Shown here piece after piece: positions 27,718-38,855 of a stretch of 64,000 nucleotides of DNA (its first letter is position 1; every line of letters begins with the position of its first letter). The stretch lies in contig NZ_CP119145.1 of the NCBI RefSeq assembly GCF_029167625.1, positions 2,728,001 to 2,792,000 of the forward strand, in the 5' to 3' direction. This stretch comes from Streptomyces sp. AM 4-1-1. Its GTDB lineage: Bacteria; Actinomycetota; Actinomycetes; Streptomycetales; Streptomycetaceae. A program made the position numbers and the translations under genes. The notes beneath the pieces are model-generated. The model was given only the letters and a program-made list of their open reading frames with translations, was not told where the DNA came from and ran no database searches.

Positions 27718-28995
27718 ATGCAGAAGCCCCGCCACCGGATACGCAGACACCGCCGCCCCGTCGCGCTCGCCGCGGCCACCACGCTGGTCATCGCCACACT
27801 GGCCACGGCGAGCAGCACCCTCCCGGCCCCCAGCCGCACCACCGCCGGCCCGGTGGCCACCGCCGACGGGGTGGGCATCGGGCCGTGCCGCATCCCGACC
27901 GGCATGGGTGTGCAGATGTCGGAGGGCATGCCGACGTCCTCCGGATACGCGCGCTCCACCGGGGTGGTCCGCGCGCTCAACCTGATGATCGACTTCCCGG
28001 ACGCGCAGGGCACCGAACCCGCGCTCGACCGGCTCGCGGAGTTCTTCCCGCAGACCTCCGACTGGTTCCGCACCAGCTCGTACGGGCGCCTCACCTACCG
28101 TTCCGAGGCCCCGGTGAAGGAATGGCTGCGGATGCCGCTGCCGTTCTCCGCGTACGGGATAGAGCGCGGTTCGCCGTACGAACCGGGGTACCGCCATCTC
28201 GTCCAGGACCTCGTGGCCACCGCCGACCCGAGGGTGGACTTCAGCGCGTACGACCTGATCAACGTGCTGGTCACCCCGAACGCCGGTCCGTCGGCGCTGG
28301 ACACCGTCCTGTCGGTGACCTTCTCCGGCAACGACGACGCCCCTTCCGCCGACGGTGTCCCGCTCGCCAACACGTCCTTCGTCTACAGCCGCCAGGACGA
28401 CGGCTCGGGGTCGTACGCCACGACCGGCTACCGCGTCCTGCCGCACGAGAACGGCCATGTCTTCGGCCTTCCCGACCTCTACACCCTGGAGGGCGGCGGC
28501 TCGGTCGGGCACTGGGACATCATGTCCGAGGACTGGGGGGCCAACAACGACCTGCTGGGCTGGCACAAGTGGAAGCTCGGCTGGCTCGACGACCAGCAGA
28601 TCAGCTGCGCGTCGAAGCGGGGTGCCGTCGAGCACGTCCTCGCCCCGCTGGCCACCAGGGGCGGGGTCAAGCTGGCGTTCATACCGCTGAGCGAACGGTC
28701 CGGATACGCCGTGGAGGTACGGACCCGGGCGGGCAACGACGAGGCCGTCTGCCGGCCCGGGGTGCTCGTCTACAAGGTCAGCGCCGATGTGGACACCGGC
28801 CAGGGACCGGTCTCCGTGGCGGACAGCACCAAGGACAGCGGCGGCTGCACCCGGCGGCCCAATGTGCACGCCGAACTCTCCGACGCCCCCTTCCGGCCCG
28901 GCGAGACCTTCACGGACCGGGACAACGGGATACGGGTCTCGGTGCTCGCCAAGGACCACGACGGGAACTACCGGGTCCGGATCACCCGCCCCTGA
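27718..28995 (+). CDS. Secreted M6 family (immune inhibitor A-like) metalloprotease
   Basis: A 425-residue exported zinc protease. The signal peptide has a basic N-region (MQKPRHRIRRHRR) and a hydrophobic core (VALAAATTLVIATLATA). The catalytic motif is HENGHVFGLPDLY: His243, Glu244 and His247 are the zinc ligands and general base, with the later GHWDIMS Met-turn. A C-terminal beta-rich part ends VLAKDHDGNYRVRITRP. Cys57, Cys617-type pairs are not obvious, but CASK and CRPG cysteines could form a disulfide. ATG 27718 was chosen as the only start preceding a signal peptide. It probably degrades extracellular proteins. Confidence 0.92.
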   Translation: MQKPRHRIRRHRRPVALAAATTLVIATLATASSTLPAPSRTTAGPVATADGVGIGPCRIPTGMGVQMSEGMPTSSGYARSTGVVRALNLMIDFPDAQGTEPALDRLAEFFPQTSDWFRTSSYGRLTYRSEAPVKEWLRMPLPFSAYGIERGSPYEPGYRHLVQDLVATADPRVDFSAYDLINVLVTPNAGPSALDTVLSVTFSGNDDAPSADGVPLANTSFVYSRQDDGSGSYATTGYRVLPHENGHVFGLPDLYTLEGGGSVGHWDIMSEDWGANNDLLGWHKWKLGWLDDQQISCASKRGAVEHVLAPLATRGGVKLAFIPLSERSGYAVEVRTRAGNDEAVCRPGVLVYKVSADVDTGQGPVSVADSTKDSGGCTRRPNVHAELSDAPFRPGETFTDRDNGIRVSVLAKDHDGNYRVRITRP

Positions 28996-29088: not shown

Positions 29089-32000
29089 TCACGTCGCGGG
29101 CGGCTCGATGTCCGAGTCCAGCCGGGCCCACGCCCGCACGGCCAGCGTCGTCGGATGCTCGTCCCCCATCGTGGCGATCGACCTCAGCAGCGCGTCGTGG
29201 TGCAGCTCCTCCGCCTCGTTCGACGACCCCGCCGCCCGCAGGTCCAGCGCCAGGTTCGACGCGCAGCCGATCGCGTCGTAGTGGTCCGCGGTGAGGACCC
29301 GGACGAAGTCCGCGTACGCCTCGCGCTCCAGCCCCACCGCCTCCGTCAGCTCGCCGTGCGCGACCAGGTCGGTGGCGTGGTTCATCATGCTGGTCAGGGT
29401 GTACGGGTTGGCCCGCCCCAGCACCTCCCGGTACTGCTGGTACGTCCTGCGGGACAGCTCCAGGGCCGCGTCCCCCTCCCCGGTCAGCCGCAGGTACACG
29501 GCCAGGTTGTTCGCGCAGGCCAGGGCGAACGGGTGCCGCTCCCCGAGCTGCGCCCGGTGCCGGTCGAGGGCGTCCTGCGCGAGCGTCCGCGCGTCCCTCG
29601 GGTTGCCCGTGGCGACCAGCGCGCACGCCAGGTTGGTGGCCGCCGACAGGGTGTCCGGGTGATCGGGGCCGAGCACCGACAGATACGTCTCGTAGATATC
29701 CGTGCTGAGCGCCCGCGCCGCCTCGTACTGACCGGTGCGGCGCAGCACGGCGGAGAGGTTCCGGGCGGCGCTCAGGGTCTCCGGGTGCTTGTCGCCGGTC
29801 CGCTTGCGGAACGCCGCCACGGTCTCCTGGAGCAGCCGTTGCGCCTGTCCGGGCGAACCCGTCTCGCGCAGGTCACGGGCGTAGTTGCTGGCCGAGGTGA
29901 GGGTGTACGGGTGGGTGGCGCCCAGCACCTCGCGCCGGGTCTCCCACACCTCCCGGTCGAGTTCGCGGGCGCCGAGGCGGTCGCCGGACAGGAACAGCGA
30001 CACGGCGAGGTTGTTCGCGGCCATCAGGGTGCGCGGATGGTCGGTCCCGTAGATCCGGCGGCTGACCGTGTGGGTCTCCCGGTCGATGTCCCTGGCCTGG
30101 GTGTAGGCGCCGGTGCTGCGCAGGTCCGCGCCGAGGTTCCCGGCCGCGACCAGGGTGTACGGGTCCTCGTCGCCCAGCGCCTCGCGGGCCCGCCGCCAGA
30201 CGTCAAGGCCCAGCGCGTACGCCTCTTCGAGCCGGCCGCCGGAGCGGAGCGCGTTGGCCTGCTGGGTACGCATGTAGATCACCAGCGCGTCGTCCTCGCC
30301 GAACACCGGAATCCAGACGTCCAGGGCCCGTTGGGCGGTCTCCTGGGCGGCGGTGTGGTCGGAGCGGCGCCAGAGGTAGCGGACCGCGTCGATGATCCAG
30401 CGGCGCACGGCGTCGTCCTGGCTGGTGAAGGCGCGCGACGGGCGCATGTGCGGCAGCAGCGCGGCGTGCCGCTCCCAGGAGGCCGGGTCCTCGGTGTTCT
30501 TCGGGTTGGCCTCGGCGAGTATCGCGTGCACATGGGCGCGCATGGCCGGCCACTCCTCGCGCGGCACCTGGGAACGCAGCACCTCCTGGACCAGCCGGTG
30601 CACGCTGATGGTCTTGTCGCTCTGGTCGGTGCGGGCGAGGCCGTACCGGTTGATCTCGGTGAACAGTCCGCCCATCCGCAGCGGATCGCCGAGCCGCCGG
30701 TCGTAGGGGGCCAGCAGCTCCGCCGTCCGGCGTCCGTACAGCGTCCACATGGGGATCGGGCCCGGCCCGAAGAACGCGCAGACCTGGAGGAGTTGGGCGG
30801 CCGCCGGCATCGCGTCGCGGATCGCGCCGAGCGACAGCAGCCAGGTGGCGGCGGCCGACCGCGGATAGCTGGTGGGCGGCTCCTGCTCCAGCATGGTCGT
30901 CAACTGGTTGTTCAGCAGGCTCAGATACGTGTCGACGGGCATCGTGGACTGCTCCAGCCAGGCCGCCGCCTGTCCGACCGCCAATGGCAGATCCCCCAGC
31001 GCCTCGGCCACCAGACCGGCCTCGGCGGACGTCAGGTTCGGGTTGTGCCGCCGCAGCAGCCACACCGACTCGTCGCGGGTGAAGACGTCCACCTCGATCT
31101 GCGAGGCCAGTTGTGCCCAGTTCCGGTTGCGCGAGGTCACCAGCACATGGCCGGGCCCGTCGGGGATCAACGGGGCCAGGACGTCGGGGCGTTCGGCGTT
31201 GTCGTAGACGAGCAGCCAGCGCCGGTACGGCCGCCCCTGCCGCAGCGCCTCCAGCACCGCGCCCGCCGTGGTCGCCACGTCGTCACCGGTCGGCAGGCCC
31301 AACTCCGCCGCCAGTGCGGCGAGTTCCTGTCGTACGAGGCCGGGCTGACCGGCGCTGATCCACCAGACGGCGTCGTAGTCGGCGGCGAACCGGTGGGCGT
31401 ACTCGATGGCGACCTGCGTCTTGCCGACCCCGCCCATCCCGAACACGGCCTGTGGCGGCCCGCCCCGGGACCCGCCCAGCGCGAACCCGTCCCGCGTCTC
31501 CTCCAGCGTCCGGCCGCGCCCGGTGAAGGACGGGTTGCGCGACGGCACGTGCCAGACCCGGGGGACGATGCCCGGGTAGCGCGGGCCACGGTCATCGTCG
31601 GCGCCGCCACGGGCGAGCGCGAACACCCCCCCGGCGCCGCCGATCGACCCCGCTCCGATGCTCGTACCGAAGCCGCCGGCGACCCGGGTGGTGTCGGTGG
31701 CGGCGTTGTCCGGCCGCCCCACGGCGGCCAGCAGGGCCTCCTCCGCCTCCTCCTGGTCCCGTTCGACGAGGTCGACGGCGACGAGGTCCGCGAACGGCGC
31801 TGGCAGCGGCGCGTCATGGATGCGGACCGGGATCAGCATCCGCTGCGACGCCTCCGGGTCCCGGGACGAGACCGCCTTCCACATCTCGTGGGAGTGCGGC
31901 AGCCGTACGTAGTCCGGCGAGAGCAGCGCCACGATCCGCCCGGTCCCGTCCAGCGCCCGCCGCACATCGGTCAGCGCGTCGGCGCCCGCGTGCTCGGCGG

Positions 32001-33669
32001 CCCCGCTCAGCGCGACCTGGTAACCGGTGCCGGCGAGCCGGGCGGCTATCCACTCGGCCCACATCCGGTCGGCGGGCGCGTAGCTGAGAAAGATGTCGGA
32101 GGGGATGGGCGCCTTGGTCCGCTCGTACGAGGAGAGCAGCGCGCGCCGCATCGTCTCGGGCATCGGCCGCTGCTTCGTCACGCGCCCCTGGGTGATCCGC
32201 CCGGTCAGCCGCTCGGACGCGGCGAGCAGGCTGTTGCCCTGGTGCGGGCGGTCGCCGACGGGGGCGGGGATCTCCTCGTACGCGAAGAACGGCCGGTACG
32301 GGATCTCCACATCGCCCCAGTACTGGTCGCGTTCCTCCCGGGTCATGCCGTCGAGGAACGGCAGGAACCGGCTGCGGGCGAGGTCGCGGCCCGCCTCCAG
32401 CTTGTTCTGCTCGGCGTATTCGACGCGCATCGGGGCGGGCAGGATGCGGATGGGCCGCTCGGTGACCTGGGCGCGCACGGATTCGGCGACGGCCGCGGCG
32501 CCCTGGATGGACTGGGCGCTGAGCGTGAACGAGTCGACGACGATGTCCGGCAGCAGGACCGTGCAGATCCCGGCGGTGTCGGAGAGTCCCGTACGGCTGT
32601 CGATCAGCACGTAGTCGTAGCGGGAGCGCAGCTCCTCGCGGAGCGCGGTGAGGAACGCGGCGCCGCGCAGCCGGGTGTAGAAGTGGTCCCAGTCGAAGGT
32701 GGACACGGCGGCGGAGTAACCGTCGTCCTGGAGACCGGCGGGCAGGAAGTCGAGCCGTCCCCCCTCGGCGAAGTCCATGGCGACCCCGGTGATGCACCGG
32801 TCCACGTCGGAGTGGTCCCGGAACCAGCGGGCCCAGTCGGCGGCCCCGTCGGGCCCGGTCTGCGGGCCCGGCTCGTCGGCCCGCATCGAGTAGTCCCTGA
32901 TGAGGTCGATGACGCCCTCGGTGGAGCTGAGTTCGGGGTCGACGAGCAGCGGGTGGAAGTAGCGGTGGAGGCCGGGCGCCTCCAGGTCCCAGTCGATGAT
33001 CAGGACCCGTAAGCCGTTGCTGGCGAGAATCCAGGCGGTGTTGACGAGGGCCATGGTGCGGCCGACCCCGCCCTTGAACGAGTAGAAGGTGACGACGGTA
33101 CCGTCCGCGCCCCCTCTCACCCCTGCCCCGGCCTTGGCTCCGGTCCCGGGGCTGGTCGCAGGGCTGGGGCTAATCGCAGGGCTCGGGCCGGTCGCCGCAC
33201 CACGGGGCCCGCCCGCCGCACCGCCGACTCCTCGCACGCTGCCCCCGGACCCGGTCACCACGCCGCTGATCCCGGCTGCTACACCGCCGGTTCCGGTCGC
33301 CGCACCGCCGACCCCTCCCGCATCACCCCCGGCCCCGGCCCCGGTCACTCCACTGCCGGCCCAGAGCCCCCGCTCCCCGCCCCGGGACCCGGTCGCCGCT
33401 CCCCGAGGCCCGCCGTCCGCCAGGATCGGCCCGCCCGCCGTGCTCCCGTCCCCCCAGCTCGCCCCACCGGTCGTCCCCCTGCCCGGCGCACCCGCTGTGC
33501 TCCCACCCGTCGTTCTCCCGCTGTCCCGGTTCGACCCGCCGGTCGTCCTCCCGCCCGTCGCCCCCGCGCCGGCCCGGCGCTCCCCTCCCCCGGACCCGCC
33601 GGCCGCCGCCGGGTGGGGCCGGCCCGTGGGCCCGCCCCCCGTGCCGTTCGCCTCGGTCGCCTCGCTCAT
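29089..33669 (-). CDS. fxsT: FxSxx-COOH system tetratricopeptide repeat protein (FxsT): ParA-like, TIR-like, NB-ARC and TPR domains
   Basis: A very large 1526-residue cytoplasmic protein. Residues 1-190 are Gly/Ala/Thr/Ser low complexity. 191-460 form a ParA/MinD-like ATPase with FKGGVGRT (198-205) as deviant Walker A and [11 protein letters not shown] (355-365) as Walker B region. 523-640 is a TIR-like domain ([21 protein letters not shown]). 735-1050 is an NB-ARC/STAND ATPase with GMGGVGKT (744-751) and LLVYDN (819-824), then a winged-helix-like part. 1110-1520 hold about nine kinesin-light-chain type TPRs of 42 residues ([30 protein letters not shown]). The start is firm: GGAGGAG precedes ATG 33669, which overlaps the fxsC stop (ATGA). 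STAND proteins sense a ligand and oligomerise. The likely ligand or partner is the modified FxsA peptide, which is inference. Confidence 0.93.
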
Positions 33670-35057
33670 CGGCCTGCTCCTCCGTCACCACGGGGTTCTT
33701 GCGGTCCGTGGCCGCCGGACCAGCGGGGCCGGTTCACCGGCCGGCTGCCGGGAAGCGCGGTCGGTGCTCCGCCGCCCGGTCTCGGGCGGCGCGACGAGGG
33801 GCCGCCGCTGGGCCCGCGCAGGATCGGCCGGGAGGCCGCGGGGCCCTCCCCGGCGCCCCCGGGCGCCACGGCCGCGTGCCGCTTGCGGATCAGGTTGTTC
33901 TGCGCGGCCGACACCATCTGCCCCAGCGCCGTCTTGAAGTCACCGAGGCACACCCGGAGTTGGAACTGCTTATCGTGCATCCCCCGCGACGACTTGCGCT
34001 CGAAGACCTCCGTGACCCCGATCCACAGCTCACCCCGGTCGATCTCCTCCCTGGGGTGGCAGGGCACCAGCACGCCCGTCGCCGGGTGCTCGGTCCGGTC
34101 GAACTGCTCCAGCTGTCTGCGGTACGGATCGACCGGCGCGCTCCACGCGTCCACCAGGAGGATCGCCACCTGGTCGTCCTGCCACGCCTGGTTGAGCTGC
34201 CGGGTCAGTCCGCCGCGCACCTCGCGGTAGGCGGTGCCGTACCCCTGGGCCGTCACCAGCCGCTGCGCCAACTGGTGCAGCGGGTACTCCTGTTGTGGGT
34301 GGTACGGATTCCAGTCGATGCCGGCCCGGCCGTAGTACGGGGCGTCCCTGCGCGCCTCGGGCAGTGTCTCCGCCGTGCCCGCCGCGACGAAGAACTGGAC
34401 GGTGCTGCCCGGCCGGGTGGGCTCCGTGCGGGGCTGGAACGACGACCGCTCGTCCGCCAGCCGTATCCCGTCGAGCACCGGCAGCTCCTCGTGGGCCACC
34501 ACCTCAAGCACCCGCCGCGCGATCAGCCGTACCGCGTTGCGGTAGTCGTCCCCCGCAGGCTCCCGCTGGAGGATGCGCTGGAGGCCCACGTCCGCGTACC
34601 ACGGGCCGAACCCGGACGTGACGTACTGGATGTGGTCGATCTCCTGCGGCACATCGACCGGCTGCCACAGCACGGGGATCAACGCCGACGAGCCCTCCTG
34701 GGTCCGGGCGAAGTACTGGTTGGCGCGGCGCATCATCACGCTCACCTCCCGGGAGCACCACTCGCTGCGGAAGTAGGCGGGCGAGTACAGGGCGACCATG
34801 GCGCGGCAGGTGCCGAGCGCGCGCTCCAGCTGCTCGCTCCAGTGCTCGCCGATCCGGATCGAGCTGTTGTCCCGGAACCCGACCGAAGCCGGGGCCCGGA
34901 GCACGCCCTCGGCCAACTCGACGATCTGCGCGCACAGGTCGTCGTAGAACTGACACACGTAGGCGTCTTTGTCATCGACCCTGGCGTAGCTCAGAAAGAA
35001 ATACGGCCCCACCGCGCCCCCACGACTTGAGCTGCTGAAGACAGGCCCACAGCGCAT
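33666..35057 (-). CDS. fxsC: TIR-like FxsC protein
   Basis: A 463-residue protein with an N-terminal TIR-like domain (about 18-190): [60 protein letters not shown] and SREVSVM. The second half (about 220-410) is a separate alpha/beta part with a long alpha-helical stretch and [15 protein letters not shown] near its end. The C-terminal 50 residues are Gly/Arg/Pro-rich. TIR domains of this kind in bacteria mediate oligomerisation or NAD+ cleavage; the catalytic Glu cannot be assigned with confidence here. ATG 35057 was used; GTG for VGPYFF (codon 16) is possible. The stop overlaps the fxsT start. Confidence 0.88.
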
Positions 35058-35164
35058 CGGCAGGAAGTGAATACCCTCCCGACCGGGCGCTTATTGCCTC
35101 AGGGCAGCACGCACTCTGCCGACGGACGTGTTCTGGCGCGAACTCGACCGTACCCAGGGCGGAT

Positions 35165-36226
35165 TCAGCACGGCTCCGTCCCCCAGTCGACGATGGTACG
35201 GCGCAAAGCCCCGATGAACTCGCTTCCCGCGAAGGTCAGTTCACCGCTCGCGAGCAGAGTGCCCGCCGCTTCGAGCGTCCGGTCGCGCCAATGTCCGTAC
35301 TGCCCCTCGGCATACGCCCGCGTCAGCCCACCCGGCCGGTCGGCCCCCGCGTCCCGGGCCCGCTCCACCCGCCAGAAGTCCGACACACCCAGATGCGCGT
35401 AGGTCCCCTGGAGCAGTGCCCCGGCGGGGCGCGGATCGGTGCGCCACGGCGCTTCGTAACGCTCCCCCGAGTCCGGCCCGTGCAGCGGTACGAGGTCGAG
35501 CAGCGCCCCCAGTTGGATGTGCAGGAACTCATGCACCAGTGCGAGCGCGAGCCGCTGCGGATCGGGCGGCAGCGACACCCCGACCGCGCCGTACCCACGC
35601 CGTACCACCGACGACACGGCCGTCCCGTCCGCCTTCGGCAGCAGCGGTACGAGGGTGGAGAGCCCGGCCGCCACGGCGTCCGCGTGCCAGGGGTGCCGCT
35701 CGACGAGCACCCGCCACGCCCCCGCCAGCGCGCGTTCCCAGCGGCGCAGCGACTCGGTGTCGAGCGGCCCCGGCACGGGTCGGCCGTGCGCGTCCCGGTA
35801 CGGTCCCCGGTCGTCGATCCGCACGGTGAGCACGCGCCCGGCGCACTCCAGCCGCAGCACCGGCCCGTCGGCGGCGAGGAGTTCGGCGAGCCCGCCCAGC
35901 CGGGGGGCCTCGCCGTCGTCCGTGTGCAGCGCACGCAGCGCGTCGGCCGCCCACAGATCCAGGTACGGGCTCAGCAGGACCGACTCCCACTCCTGCCGCG
36001 ACCGCCGCCCGATCCGGGCGATCTCCTCGTACGTCTCCGCCAGCCGCGCCCGGCGCGCCAGCTCCGGCCGACGCTCCTCGGCGGCCCGCCGTACCGCGCT
36101 CAGCAGCAGCCGCCGCTTGCTCAACTGTCCGGTCCGCAGCACGGCGACGGCCTCGGCGCCGCCCCTCCCCGCGGCCAGGGCGAGAAACGTCTCCCGGGGG
36201 ACGACGTGCCGCACCACCGCGCTCAC
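35165..36226 (-). CDS. HExxH-motif protein, alpha-ketoglutarate-type peptide beta-hydroxylase candidate
   Basis: A 353-residue protein that starts with GTG 36226 overlapping the fxsB stop (GTGA). The motif HEFLH (His232-Glu233-His236) lies in LALALVHEFLHIQLGALLDLV, and Tyr/His residues follow (LLQGTYAHLGVSDFWR). NCBI families of this type, called aKG-HExxH peptide beta-hydroxylases, are adjacent to or fused with cyclophane-forming radical SAM enzymes and have been reported to hydroxylate the beta carbon of residues in the ring. The genetic coupling to fxsB makes that role likely here. There is no signal peptide. It is alternatively a zinc protease for the leader, which the fold cannot exclude. 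Confidence 0.85.
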   Translation of the reverse strand: MSAVVRHVVPRETFLALAAGRGGAEAVAVLRTGQLSKRRLLLSAVRRAAEERRPELARRARLAETYEEIARIGRRSRQEWESVLLSPYLDLWAADALRALHTDDGEAPRLGGLAELLAADGPVLRLECAGRVLTVRIDDRGPYRDAHGRPVPGPLDTESLRRWERALAGAWRVLVERHPWHADAVAAGLSTLVPLLPKADGTAVSSVVRRGYGAVGVSLPPDPQRLALALVHEFLHIQLGALLDLVPLHGPDSGERYEAPWRTDPRPAGALLQGTYAHLGVSDFWRVERARDAGADRPGGLTRAYAEGQYGHWRDRTLEAAGTLLASGELTFAGSEFIGALRRTIVDWGTEPC

Positions 36227-37500
36227 CGCGCTCGTACCTCCCCCGCCCCGCCGCCACCGCGTTCCCTGCCCCGCGACTCCCTCAACCCCCTCAACGCCAG
36301 CACGTCCGGGGCGAGCCGCTCCCGGATGTGCCCGATCAACGCGGCCATGTCGGCGCAGTACACGGTGGGGTGGCCGAACGGGTCACTCCCGTCCGCCGTC
36401 ACCCGGTACCGATGGGCGTGGAGCCCGCCCCCGCACACGGGCAGCAGCGGACAGGCCGCGCAGACCGGCGAGCGGCCGGGCACCCGGAACGCCGGGTGCA
36501 GGGCCGCGTCGGCGAAGGAGTCGCGGTGCACCCCGAGCGAGGTCGCGGCGGCCCCTTCGTACGACACCTTCAGGCTGTCCACGAGTTCGAGGGAGCCGTC
36601 GGTCTCCACGACCACCAGGTCGGGTTCCCCGGTGCCGACGATCTCGCTGCTCGCCCGGCCCCCCAGCAACAGCGTGATCAGTTCCTCGAAGAGCCGGATG
36701 CCGGTCTCCCGGCGCGGCGCCCCGTACCACCGGTCGAACACGGCGCCCAGCCAGTCGGCGTACGGCGTGCCCCCGCCGCGCCCCGGGTCCGGCGCCGCGC
36801 CCTCCGCACCGAGCCCGGCGGGCGGGGCGACCGGCGGCAGCCGGCGTGCGGCCAGCCCTGGCGGCGGTGCCTCCCAGGTCCCGTGCGGGAGCAGCAGATC
36901 CATCCGGGGCGGGGCGAATTCGAGCAGCGCCTCATAGGTGGCGACGGGGTCGGCGTCCAGATCGATCGTGCACAACACCCCCGCGTACAGAGGCTTGTTG
37001 GCGTCCGAGCCGAGCGTACGCAACGCATCGGCGACGACACCGTGGCTGCCCCGCCCGTCCGCGAACCGCCGGTACCGGTCATGCCCGCCGGCCGTGCCGT
37101 CCAGGCTGACCCCGACCCGTACCCCGTACCGGTGCAGCACCCGCAGCAGCCCGGGATCGTCCCTCAACAACACACCGTTGGTCTGCATCCCGTACGAAAC
37201 CCGTCCGCCCCCGCCCCCCTCCCCATCCCCGTCGAGCGCGTCGGAGAGAATCCGCAACGTCTCGCCGAGATGCCGGGCCCCGACGAGCAGCGGCTCACCG
37301 CCGTGGAGCGTGACCGACACGTCCCCGGGCACGGCCCGCCGGTACTCCGCGATCCGCTCGGCCACCCGTCGCACGGTGTCCAGTTCCATCCGGCGCGGCT
37401 TGTCCCGCCAGCTCTGGTCGGCGGCCTCGTACACATAGCAGTAGGAGCACGCCAGATTGCACCGGCTGTGCAGCTTCAGGAGGAACTGACGGAACCTCAC
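36223..37500 (-). CDS. fxsB: FxsB family cyclophane-forming radical SAM/SPASM peptide maturase
   Basis: A 425-residue radical SAM enzyme. It begins VRFRQFLLKLHSRCNLACSYC; Cys14-x3-Cys18-x2-Cys21 binds the SAM [4Fe-4S] cluster. GGEPLL (about 67-72) is the SAM-binding segment. The C-terminal SPASM region has Cys347, Cys350, Cys356 and Cys382 (CAACPLLPVC), so at least one auxiliary cluster is expected. FxsB-type enzymes join an aromatic side chain to the beta carbon of a residue two positions on, forming a three-residue cyclophane in the precursor. GTG 37500 was chosen since it starts at the conserved RFRQ. The gene lies 16 bp after fxsA. Confidence 0.93.
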   Translation of the reverse strand: MRFRQFLLKLHSRCNLACSYCYVYEAADQSWRDKPRRMELDTVRRVAERIAEYRRAVPGDVSVTLHGGEPLLVGARHLGETLRILSDALDGDGEGGGGGRVSYGMQTNGVLLRDDPGLLRVLHRYGVRVGVSLDGTAGGHDRYRRFADGRGSHGVVADALRTLGSDANKPLYAGVLCTIDLDADPVATYEALLEFAPPRMDLLLPHGTWEAPPPGLAARRLPPVAPPAGLGAEGAAPDPGRGGGTPYADWLGAVFDRWYGAPRRETGIRLFEELITLLLGGRASSEIVGTGEPDLVVVETDGSLELVDSLKVSYEGAAATSLGVHRDSFADAALHPAFRVPGRSPVCAACPLLPVCGGGLHAHRYRVTADGSDPFGHPTVYCADMAALIGHIRERLAPDVLALRGLRESRGRERGGGGAGEVRAR

Positions 37501-37516
37501 GCTCGGGCGCTCCGGC

Positions 37517-37705
37517 TCAGCGAGCCTGGTCGATCGCCGAGGTGAACGCCGAGACCGGCTCGGCGGAGGGGTGGAGCACATCGTCCCTGAGCCGGGACAC
37601 CATGGCGCCGAAGACCGTGTCCGGCAGCTCGGCCAGCTCCGCGTCACTCAGCTCACTGACGTCCGTGAGAACCGAGACGAGCGGACCGGAAGTGGTTGGC
37701 TCCAT
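37517..37705 (-). CDS. fxsA: FxsA precursor peptide (FxSxx-COOH RiPP) with four-residue C-terminal extension
   Basis: A 62-residue peptide from ATG 37705 (MEPTTSGPLVSVLTDVSE...). The leader part is acidic with LSDAELAELPDTVFGAMVSRL, a predicted helix for maturase binding. The core is Phe54-Thr55-Ser56-Ala57-Ile58, the FxSxx motif, but the frame continues with DQAR before the TGA stop. Family members typically end directly after FxSxx. The core Phe and Ser are the expected cyclophane residues. The position directly upstream of fxsB leaves little doubt about identity. A TGCTATATG extended -10-like element lies about 35 bp upstream (near 37730-37745, minus strand). Confidence 0.88.
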   Translation of the reverse strand: MEPTTSGPLVSVLTDVSELSDAELAELPDTVFGAMVSRLRDDVLHPSAEPVSAFTSAIDQAR

Positions 37706-37969: not shown

Positions 37970-38359
37970 ATGGGTACGTGGGGCAGCGGGAACTTCGACA
38001 ACGACACGGCTGCGGATCACCTGTCGGGCGTCATCGCCCGACTCGTCGGGGAGGTGACGGAGGCGATGGCCGACGATCCCGTCACTCTGGAGGCCGACGA
38101 GTACTGGGGCAACGCCGTGCCCTGCCACCTGGAGTTGCTGTACGTCCTCTACCGGGCCGGTCACACTTCTCCCCATCTGCCGCGCCCCGACGTGATCGAA
38201 GGATGGAAGAAGGACTTCATGGCCGTCTGGGAGAAGACCATCGACGGCCTGGAACCTTCGCCGGCCTTCAAGCGGGAAAGGCGGTCGGTGCTGAACCGCA
38301 CCTTCGACCAACTGATCGAGGCGGCCACCACGGAGGCTGCCGCGCTGACTGGCATCTGA
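37970..38359 (+). CDS. DUF4259 domain protein
   Basis: A 129-residue soluble protein beginning MGTWGSGNFDNDTAADHLSG, the hallmark of DUF4259 (GxWGxGxFxND and so on). The middle reads DEYWGNAVPCHLELLYVLYRAG and the end is alpha-helical. The function is unknown; some relatives are near toxin-antitoxin and immunity genes. ATG 37970 follows GGAGGGGGACCC. It faces away from the Fxs cluster, with about 265 bp between start codons. Confidence 0.9.
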   Translation: MGTWGSGNFDNDTAADHLSGVIARLVGEVTEAMADDPVTLEADEYWGNAVPCHLELLYVLYRAGHTSPHLPRPDVIEGWKKDFMAVWEKTIDGLEPSPAFKRERRSVLNRTFDQLIEAATTEAAALTGI

Positions 38360-38778: not shown

Positions 38779-38851
38779 GCCTTCGTAGCTCAGGGGATAG
38801 AGCACCGCTCTCCTAAAGCGGGTGTCGCAGGTTCGAATCCTGCCGGGGGCA
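38779..38851 (+). tRNA. tRNA-Arg, anticodon CCT
   Basis: A 73-base cloverleaf. The acceptor GCCTTCG pairs with CGGGGGC through two U-G pairs, followed by discriminator A; CCA is not encoded. D-arm TAGCTCAGGGGATAGAGCA, anticodon arm CGCTCTCCTAAAGCG-like with anticodon CCT in the loop, T-arm GCAGGTTCGAATCCTGC. It reads AGG codons, which are rare in Streptomyces. The two wobble pairs in the acceptor stem are a departure from the usual GCCCCCG form. Confidence 0.95.
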
Positions 38852-38855
38852 CAGC

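Follow-up and report, generated by a model that had tools for sequence, protein, structure and literature searches.

Organisation of the fxs locus

Five genes on the minus strand of a 64,000-nucleotide stretch of the genome of Streptomyces sp. AM 4-1-1 (contig NZ_CP119145.1, positions 2,728,001 to 2,792,000; this whole stretch is called the window and all positions are given in its numbering) form an fxs unit, in which the genes of a putative peptide modification pathway stand together with those of a TIR protein (FxsC) and a large NB-ARC/TPR protein (FxsT). Read from 37705 to 29089, the order is fxsA, fxsB, fxsH, fxsC and fxsT (Table 1), fxsH being the name used here for the gene of the HExxH protein. 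All five proteins reach the curated cut-offs of the NCBIfam Fxs families; the assignment of FxsB is borderline because its TIGR04269 match is split into two stretches and only just passes the cut-off. An earlier note on this DNA had placed the unit at exactly these coordinates, and the five genes and family identities that it proposed agree with the NCBIfam matches, barely so for FxsB. The finding goes beyond chance.

Its count of tight junctions (four of five) needs correcting: five genes make four junctions, three of which are tight. A gap of 16 bp lies between fxsA and fxsB, fxsB and fxsH overlap by 4 bp, as do fxsC and fxsT, and the gap before fxsC measures 107 bp, not the 108 bp noted earlier. 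FxsC may start at GTG 35012 instead of ATG 35057, since its family match starts at residue 18 and relatives begin there; this gap would then be 152 bp. The operon ends with fxsT: the next gene (27720-28995, plus strand) is convergent and encodes an M6-peptidase-like protein (24.8 bits, cut-off 22) with an apparent signal sequence.

Table 1. Genes, domains and sites of the fxs locus, with profile scores in bits
Feature	Position	Strand	Description
fxsA	37517..37705	-	62-amino-acid precursor, C-terminal end ...PVSAFTSAIDQAR; TIGR04268 35.7, cut-off 28
FTSAI motif of FxsA	37532..37546	-	Predicted Phe-Ser cyclophane, i to i+2, from the sequence and MscB chemistry (PMC11002830)
DQAR tail of FxsA	37520..37531	-	Four residues past the motif, at odds with a literal FxSxx-COOH ending
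fxsB	36223..37500	-	Radical SAM/SPASM maturase, 425 amino acids, GTG start; TIGR04269 370.7, cut-off 370
fxsH	35165..36226	-	Separate HExxH protein (HEFLH), candidate alpha-ketoglutarate peptide beta-hydroxylase; TIGR04267 148, cut-off 40
fxsC	33666..35057	-	N-terminal TIR, WCSRE motif and second alpha/beta domain; NF040588 160.6, cut-off 130; TIGR04276 126.4, cut-off 55
fxsT	29089..33669	-	ParA-like, TIR, NB-ARC and TPR, 1526 amino acids; NF040586 998.5, cut-off 300
ParA/MinD-like domain of FxsT	32476..33099	-	KGGVGRT, P-loop Lys replaced by Arg; NF047398 148.5, cut-off 90
TIR domain of FxsT	31732..32094	-	TIR_2 78.9; catalytic-type Glu unconserved
NB-ARC (STAND) domain of FxsT	31045..31449	-	GMGGVGKT, LLVYDN; PF00931 26.9, cut-off 23.5
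Part of C-terminal TPR array of FxsT	29554..30030	-	Likely sensor; TPR_10, TPR_12; kinesin-light-chain TPR E 6.1e-17
tRNA-Arg(CCT)	38779..38852	+	Conserved edge of the variable slot containing the operon

Core components and a proposed effector module

Related loci (numbered with the prefix L) came from two samples, neither of them random: 80 FxsB loci, those ranked highest by FxsB similarity among 515 with one genome per species, and 60 of the strongest FxsT matches (L031-L090). What defines a clade of 25 loci (the window, L106-L127, L129 and L152) is that FxsB and the HExxH protein have a gene each; L108, whose short contig shows just FxsT and FxsB and which carries the same species name as L152, was placed in it by similarity. 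The clade loci hold separate FxsB and FxsH together with FxsC and FxsT, in two gene orders, and FxsA was found in 24 of the 25, L108 being the exception. The nearest named relative among the fetched loci, Streptomyces sp. NRRL S-118 (L106), shares the gene order of the window. Distances among the Fxs proteins correlate across 22 loci (r 0.90-0.96, with no control for species history); with the joint occurrence in two gene orders, this upholds the earlier view of the five genes as one unit. Clustering of open reading frames (ORFs) gave no non-Fxs family recurring in >9/25 clade loci, and no exporter or processing or leader protease recurring across these loci, not all recurrent families being annotated.

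A FxsT-like gene lies within the fetched stretch of 75 of the 80 FxsB loci. The FxsB maturase is therefore strongly linked to an NB-ARC/TPR protein, and the link goes beyond mere co-transcription, because the nearest pair is on opposite strands in 43 of the 75. At L038, L041, L042, L043, L045, L048, L049 and L051, a FxsT-like gene faces an HExxH gene, with no FxsB match within the stretch.

The presence of FxsC follows that of the ParA-like head of FxsT. Across 76 FxsT loci (the window and the 75 above), both are present in 34 and both absent in 41, and one (L108), cut short by the end of its contig, has the head but no FxsC (Fisher's p 8e-21, kinship ignored); FxsC is thus missing from 42 of the 76 loci, 41 of which have a FxsT without this head. 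For a tree of the NB-ARC/TPR part, 130 of 135 FxsT from both sets were kept, five having no P-loop match or being too short, and L037, apparently the same record as L129, was dropped. The two states agree in 124 of these 130 FxsT; the six disagreements comprise four contig edges (L035, L073, L086, L108), a gene that is split (L122) and a single genuine exception (L087). Pfam analysis of five FxsC-less FxsT (L133, L141, L144, L151, L161) found TPR in all five, NB-ARC over the cut-off in four and TIR in none. The covariation thus points to the TIR as an optional effector module, and we conclude from these comparisons that the putative core consists of peptide, maturase and NB-ARC/TPR protein, with FxsC and the ParA/TIR head as one predicted effector module. 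A tail-to-tail arrangement of FxsB and FxsH with a short FxsT and no FxsC was seen in L133, L136, L137, L141, L144 and others (in L133, L141 and L144, Pfam finds NB-ARC/TPR only).

FxsT, a likely sensor, and the TIR of FxsC

Pfam identified TIR_2, NB-ARC, TPR and a ParA-type P-loop in FxsT and TIR_2 in FxsC; together with NCBIfam, this bears out the domain set previously proposed for FxsT. The P-loop, Walker B and GLPLA-type motif of a STAND switch are all present, and the P-loop Lys and Walker B Asp of the NB-ARC domain are retained in 36/36 aligned FxsT. The Lys of the ParA-like P-loop is replaced by Arg in all 32 aligned FxsT showing that domain.

The two TIR domains differ at the catalytic-type position. 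In FxsT, where this position was equated by spacing from a conserved Ser/Tyr (3 of 68 proteins were unaligned), Glu occurs in 3/65 proteins, and one residue earlier in 23/65, the window included: a conserved catalytic-type Glu is lacking. The TIR fold of FxsC carries the NADase-type Glu, retained in 62 of 63 aligned proteins. The candidate TIR enzyme is thus probably FxsC, and the ParA-like/TIR head of FxsT is probably not an enzyme, contrary to the suggestion of the earlier note that the TIR domains of FxsT trigger the response. Whereas SPARTA TIR-APAZ, AbTir, SARM1 and plant TIR-NLR (nucleotide-binding, leucine-rich repeat) proteins are the known comparisons, the candidate TIR effector here is a protein apart from the NLR-like sensor.

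The N-terminus of FxsT (33110-33669) is made up of ~170 Gly/Ala/Thr-rich residues with imperfect direct repeats. The FxsT of L106 does not have this region and begins just ahead of the ParA-like domain.

The FxsA peptide and its probable maturation

FxsA ends in ...AFTSAIDQAR, that is, in the motif FTSAI followed by DQAR, and so does not have a strict FxSxx-COOH ending; the locus is an FXS-type system with a non-terminal motif. This is common in the clade, where 21 of 24 FxsA carry tails of 1-8 residues after FxSxx and three (L107, L109, L110) carry none; the FxSxx carboxyl end is therefore not fixed in this clade. Outside it, a pattern-based search of 92 FxsB loci for a motif-bearing ORF on the FxsB strand, <=300 bases from FxsB, gave a peptide ending exactly in FxSxx in 30, a tailed one in three (L135, L139 and L031, the last probably by chance) and no candidate in 59. 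The tailed FxsA of Streptomyces scabiei and S. stelliscabiei (L135 9636-9962, L139 9630-9968) have six residues past the motif and stand beside a solo FxsB, adjoining another FxsB-FxsC-FxsT set. Nine clade loci (L113, L116, L117, L118, L120, L123, L124, L126, L127) encode a second peptide, ending in AFNSSI, beside a second, fused FxsBH maturase, which in L116 runs off the contig.

The FxsA of the window and of L106 are alike up to FxSA[IL] and divergent after it. Over 58 codons of leader and core, nonsynonymous divergence (dN) is 0.125 and synonymous divergence (dS) 0.649, a ratio of ~0.19, and FxsA looks to be under selection as a protein. The first tail residue is variable among clade peptides. 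PflC/PosC, HExxH enzymes of another pathway, are described as cutting off a C-terminal tetrapeptide (PMC12636437), and it is a testable idea, by analogy, that tail trimming by the stand-alone FxsH, rather than hydroxylation alone, would arm the peptide. We do not rely on it, because of the variable first tail residue and the three tailless clade peptides.

FxsA is probably modified by both FxsB and FxsH, judging from their families. FxsB has the radical SAM (S-adenosylmethionine) and SPASM cysteines of three-residue cyclophane (triceptide) maturases, together with a substrate bearing FxS: C14, C18 and C21, and C347, C350, C356 and C382, are invariant among three aligned FxsB. In the alignment it has a segment that is absent from L037 and L032, and its two-part TIGR04269 match lies <1 bit above the cut-off. 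FxsH matches the profile of alpha-ketoglutarate-dependent HExxH peptide hydroxylases and has their motif, which is present in the best match of all 58 loci. Among solved structures, the best relative of FxsB is the radical SAM cyclophane synthase ChlB (PDB 9gm3, E 1.5e-59), and FxsH is related to PDB 22nu (E 1.7e-44) and to the alpha-ketoglutarate HExxH hydroxylase ChlH (8s5f, E 1.2e-4). We take the triceptide maturase MscB to be a member of the FxsB family; judged from its description, it shares the FxS substrate logic of FxsB/FxsA. MscB makes a link from Phe C4 to Ser C-beta (PMC11002830). ChlBH is one fused protein (PMC12636437), whereas FxsB and FxsH are separate in the window, as also distinguishes them from the fused FxsBH of many relatives.

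Genomic setting

The M6-like gene and tRNA-Arg(CCT) are conserved flanks in relatives, and the operon of L106 lies between the same pair. None of 15 stretches from 12 same-genus genomes (L091-L105) gave an fxs match: seven (L091, L092, L093, L094, L099, L100, L105) show both edges, and hence a whole slot without fxs, and the remaining eight one edge, or neither clearly. The DNA around tRNA-Arg(CCT) is variable, with integrase genes adjoining the tRNA in L099 and L105, and a Pfam scan of 10 chosen ORFs from these slots placed an AMP-binding enzyme beside the M6-like gene in L091, L092 and L099. In S. flaveus (L125), a clade-type operon with another gene order lies near an M6-like gene on a fetched stretch without tRNA-Arg(CCT), and may represent a second gain at one slot. 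Such variability is the behaviour of an accessory locus and no proof of defence. Divergent from fxsA, a plus-strand gene (37970-38359) encodes a DUF4259 protein (PF14078, 24.8 bits), whose family is not widely recurrent in the clustering of the 25 clade loci.

Relation to described systems

Coupling of a peptide to an NB-ARC/TPR protein is already known, as the window operon fits a published description. Kaur et al. 2020 (PMC7159879) described FxSxx peptide-processing systems coupled to AP-ATPase/TPR proteins, including 'standalone' kinds in which the ATPase bears an inactive MinD/ParA-like domain in addition, and suggested for the processed peptide the role of a toxin or of a signal amplifying the system; the remark in the earlier note that the coupling is not explained overlooks this proposal. 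The standalone system has in common with the window a peptide, an HExxH protein, a radical SAM-SPASM enzyme, and an AP-ATPase with TPR, TIR and a variant ParA domain, so that every component of its description is present here. The HExxH protein is a peptidase in that paper and a candidate hydroxylase here, and its section on standalone systems makes no mention of FxsC, of a tail or of any connection of FxsC with the ParA/TIR head. Neither vWA nor MoxR was found by Pfam near the operon in 20 ORFs covering 9.4-52 kb of the window, these being picked by base composition, by which small genes may escape. All five families of the NCBIfam FXS system (TIGR04268, TIGR04269, TIGR04267, NF040588/TIGR04276, NF040586) are represented, differing from it in the four peptide residues past FxSxx. 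What goes beyond the known coupling is the tailed peptide, the split between the TIRs of FxsC and FxsT, the covariation of FxsC with the head, and the finding of no widely recurrent non-Fxs family. No functional test of an Fxs peptide/STAND pair was recognised in the open-access literature, to which the search was confined, subscription papers lying outside it.

Proposed role and alternatives

The reading that we favour, at a probability of about 0.45, is that the modified peptide is an intracellular ligand of FxsT and that FxsC provides an output acting on NAD or nucleotides. Judging from the protein families, FxsB would link Phe54 to Ser56 of FxsA and FxsH would hydroxylate the peptide. Mature FxsA would be kept inside the cell, since its gene has no recurrent companion coding for an exporter or a protease, and its co-occurrence with FxsT suggests that it may bind the TPR/NB-ARC part as a licensing or inhibitory ligand. 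On a trigger, FxsT would undergo nucleotide exchange and oligomerisation, as expected of STAND ATPases, and its head would engage FxsC, the N-terminal TIR of which would cleave NAD+ or make a nucleotide signal. Growth arrest or cell death would be the outcome, most plausibly directed against phages.

A bolder form of this reading, speculative and on balance doubtful, sees the operon as an immune switch resembling NLRs, with a cyclophane peptide of the cell's own making as a cofactor that always stays inside. As one maturation enzyme would be a radical SAM protein with iron-sulphur (Fe-S) clusters and the other would use alpha-ketoglutarate, Fe and O2, the modification state of this peptide would report the supply of Fe-S, SAM and alpha-ketoglutarate; infection or damage upsetting that supply, or an attack on the peptide, would free FxsT to act through its ParA/TIR head on FxsC.

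Several observations weigh against the favoured reading. Retention of FxsA is argued from the absence of a common gene, and both the Phe-Ser link and the binding of the peptide by FxsT are predictions. The independent-pairs test on the FxsT tree, with five pairs in agreement, none opposed and five without a difference, gives p 0.0625 for the association of FxsC and head, and the systems without FxsC mean that TIR firing cannot be a universal output. A match to the TIR fold is no sign of activity, as comparable scores come from TIRs of receptors and adaptors (Hydra TRR-2 12.2, MAL 11.2). PADLOC yields one notable match, at 78.2 bits, between the ParA-like part of FxsT and the candidate model PDC-M28B, but its other matches are weaker: a second PDC-M28B model reaches 37.7 bits on FxsT, TIR models 20.8-23.8 on FxsT and 18.3-23.2 on FxsC, viperin models 31.6 and 15.7 on FxsB, and the four neighbour genes tested have no match. 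Assignment to Thoeris type III was rejected, ThcB4 scoring 26 bits against a cut-off of 220.

The mature peptide may instead be the effector, a toxin or amplifying signal freed on activation of FxsT, with FxsC and FxsT as its regulators, as in the proposal of Kaur et al. 2020 (PMC7159879). The persistence of FxsB in the 41 FxsT loci without FxsC fits such a role, as do candidate peptides ending in FxSxx in six of them (L138, L143, L144, L151, L170, L171). Nevertheless, we consider it unlikely: ORF clustering in the 25 clade loci revealed no recurring exporter or processing protease, and the conservation of the leader between the window and L106, with differing tails, is a better fit to a retained ligand. 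Moreover, the HExxH family taken for a releasing peptidase has since been shown to hydroxylate, though PflC also cleaves (PMC12636437).

NB-ARC/TPR regulators are common in Streptomyces, and FxsT could be an AfsR-like regulator of development or metabolism, with the peptide as an intracellular or cell-cell signal and no immune role. In a search of 61 genomes, 35 gave an FxsB match above the family cut-off, a rather high frequency for a gene of defence. We rate this explanation as rather improbable, given the variable, slot-like location, the NADase-type Glu retained in FxsC and the Pfam analysis of FxsT and FxsC, which gave no DNA-binding domain. That the locus is an ordinary cluster for an antibiotic of the ribosomally synthesised and post-translationally modified peptide (RiPP) class, with the STAND gene a neighbour by chance, is very improbable: enzymes of the radical SAM and HExxH kinds are typical of RiPP tailoring, but FxsT accompanies FxsB at nearly all loci, often on the opposite strand, and neither a transporter nor a leader peptidase is a recurrent neighbour across the 25 clade loci.

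Implications

For the favoured reading, with the peptide as ligand of FxsT, the comparison yields parts that can be tested: the Glu of FxsC as an enzymatic residue, the ParA/TIR head as a docking module for FxsC, and a core made up of peptide, maturase and NB-ARC/TPR protein. The tailed clade indicates that the precursor gene need not encode a free FxSxx carboxylate, and natural controls are offered by the nine loci in which a tailed peptide occurs alongside a strict one. To our knowledge, most work has treated the maturation of RiPPs and the NLR-like STAND sensors as separate subjects; the locus described here and those related to it suggest that an intracellular receptor can have a modified peptide as one of its built-in parts.

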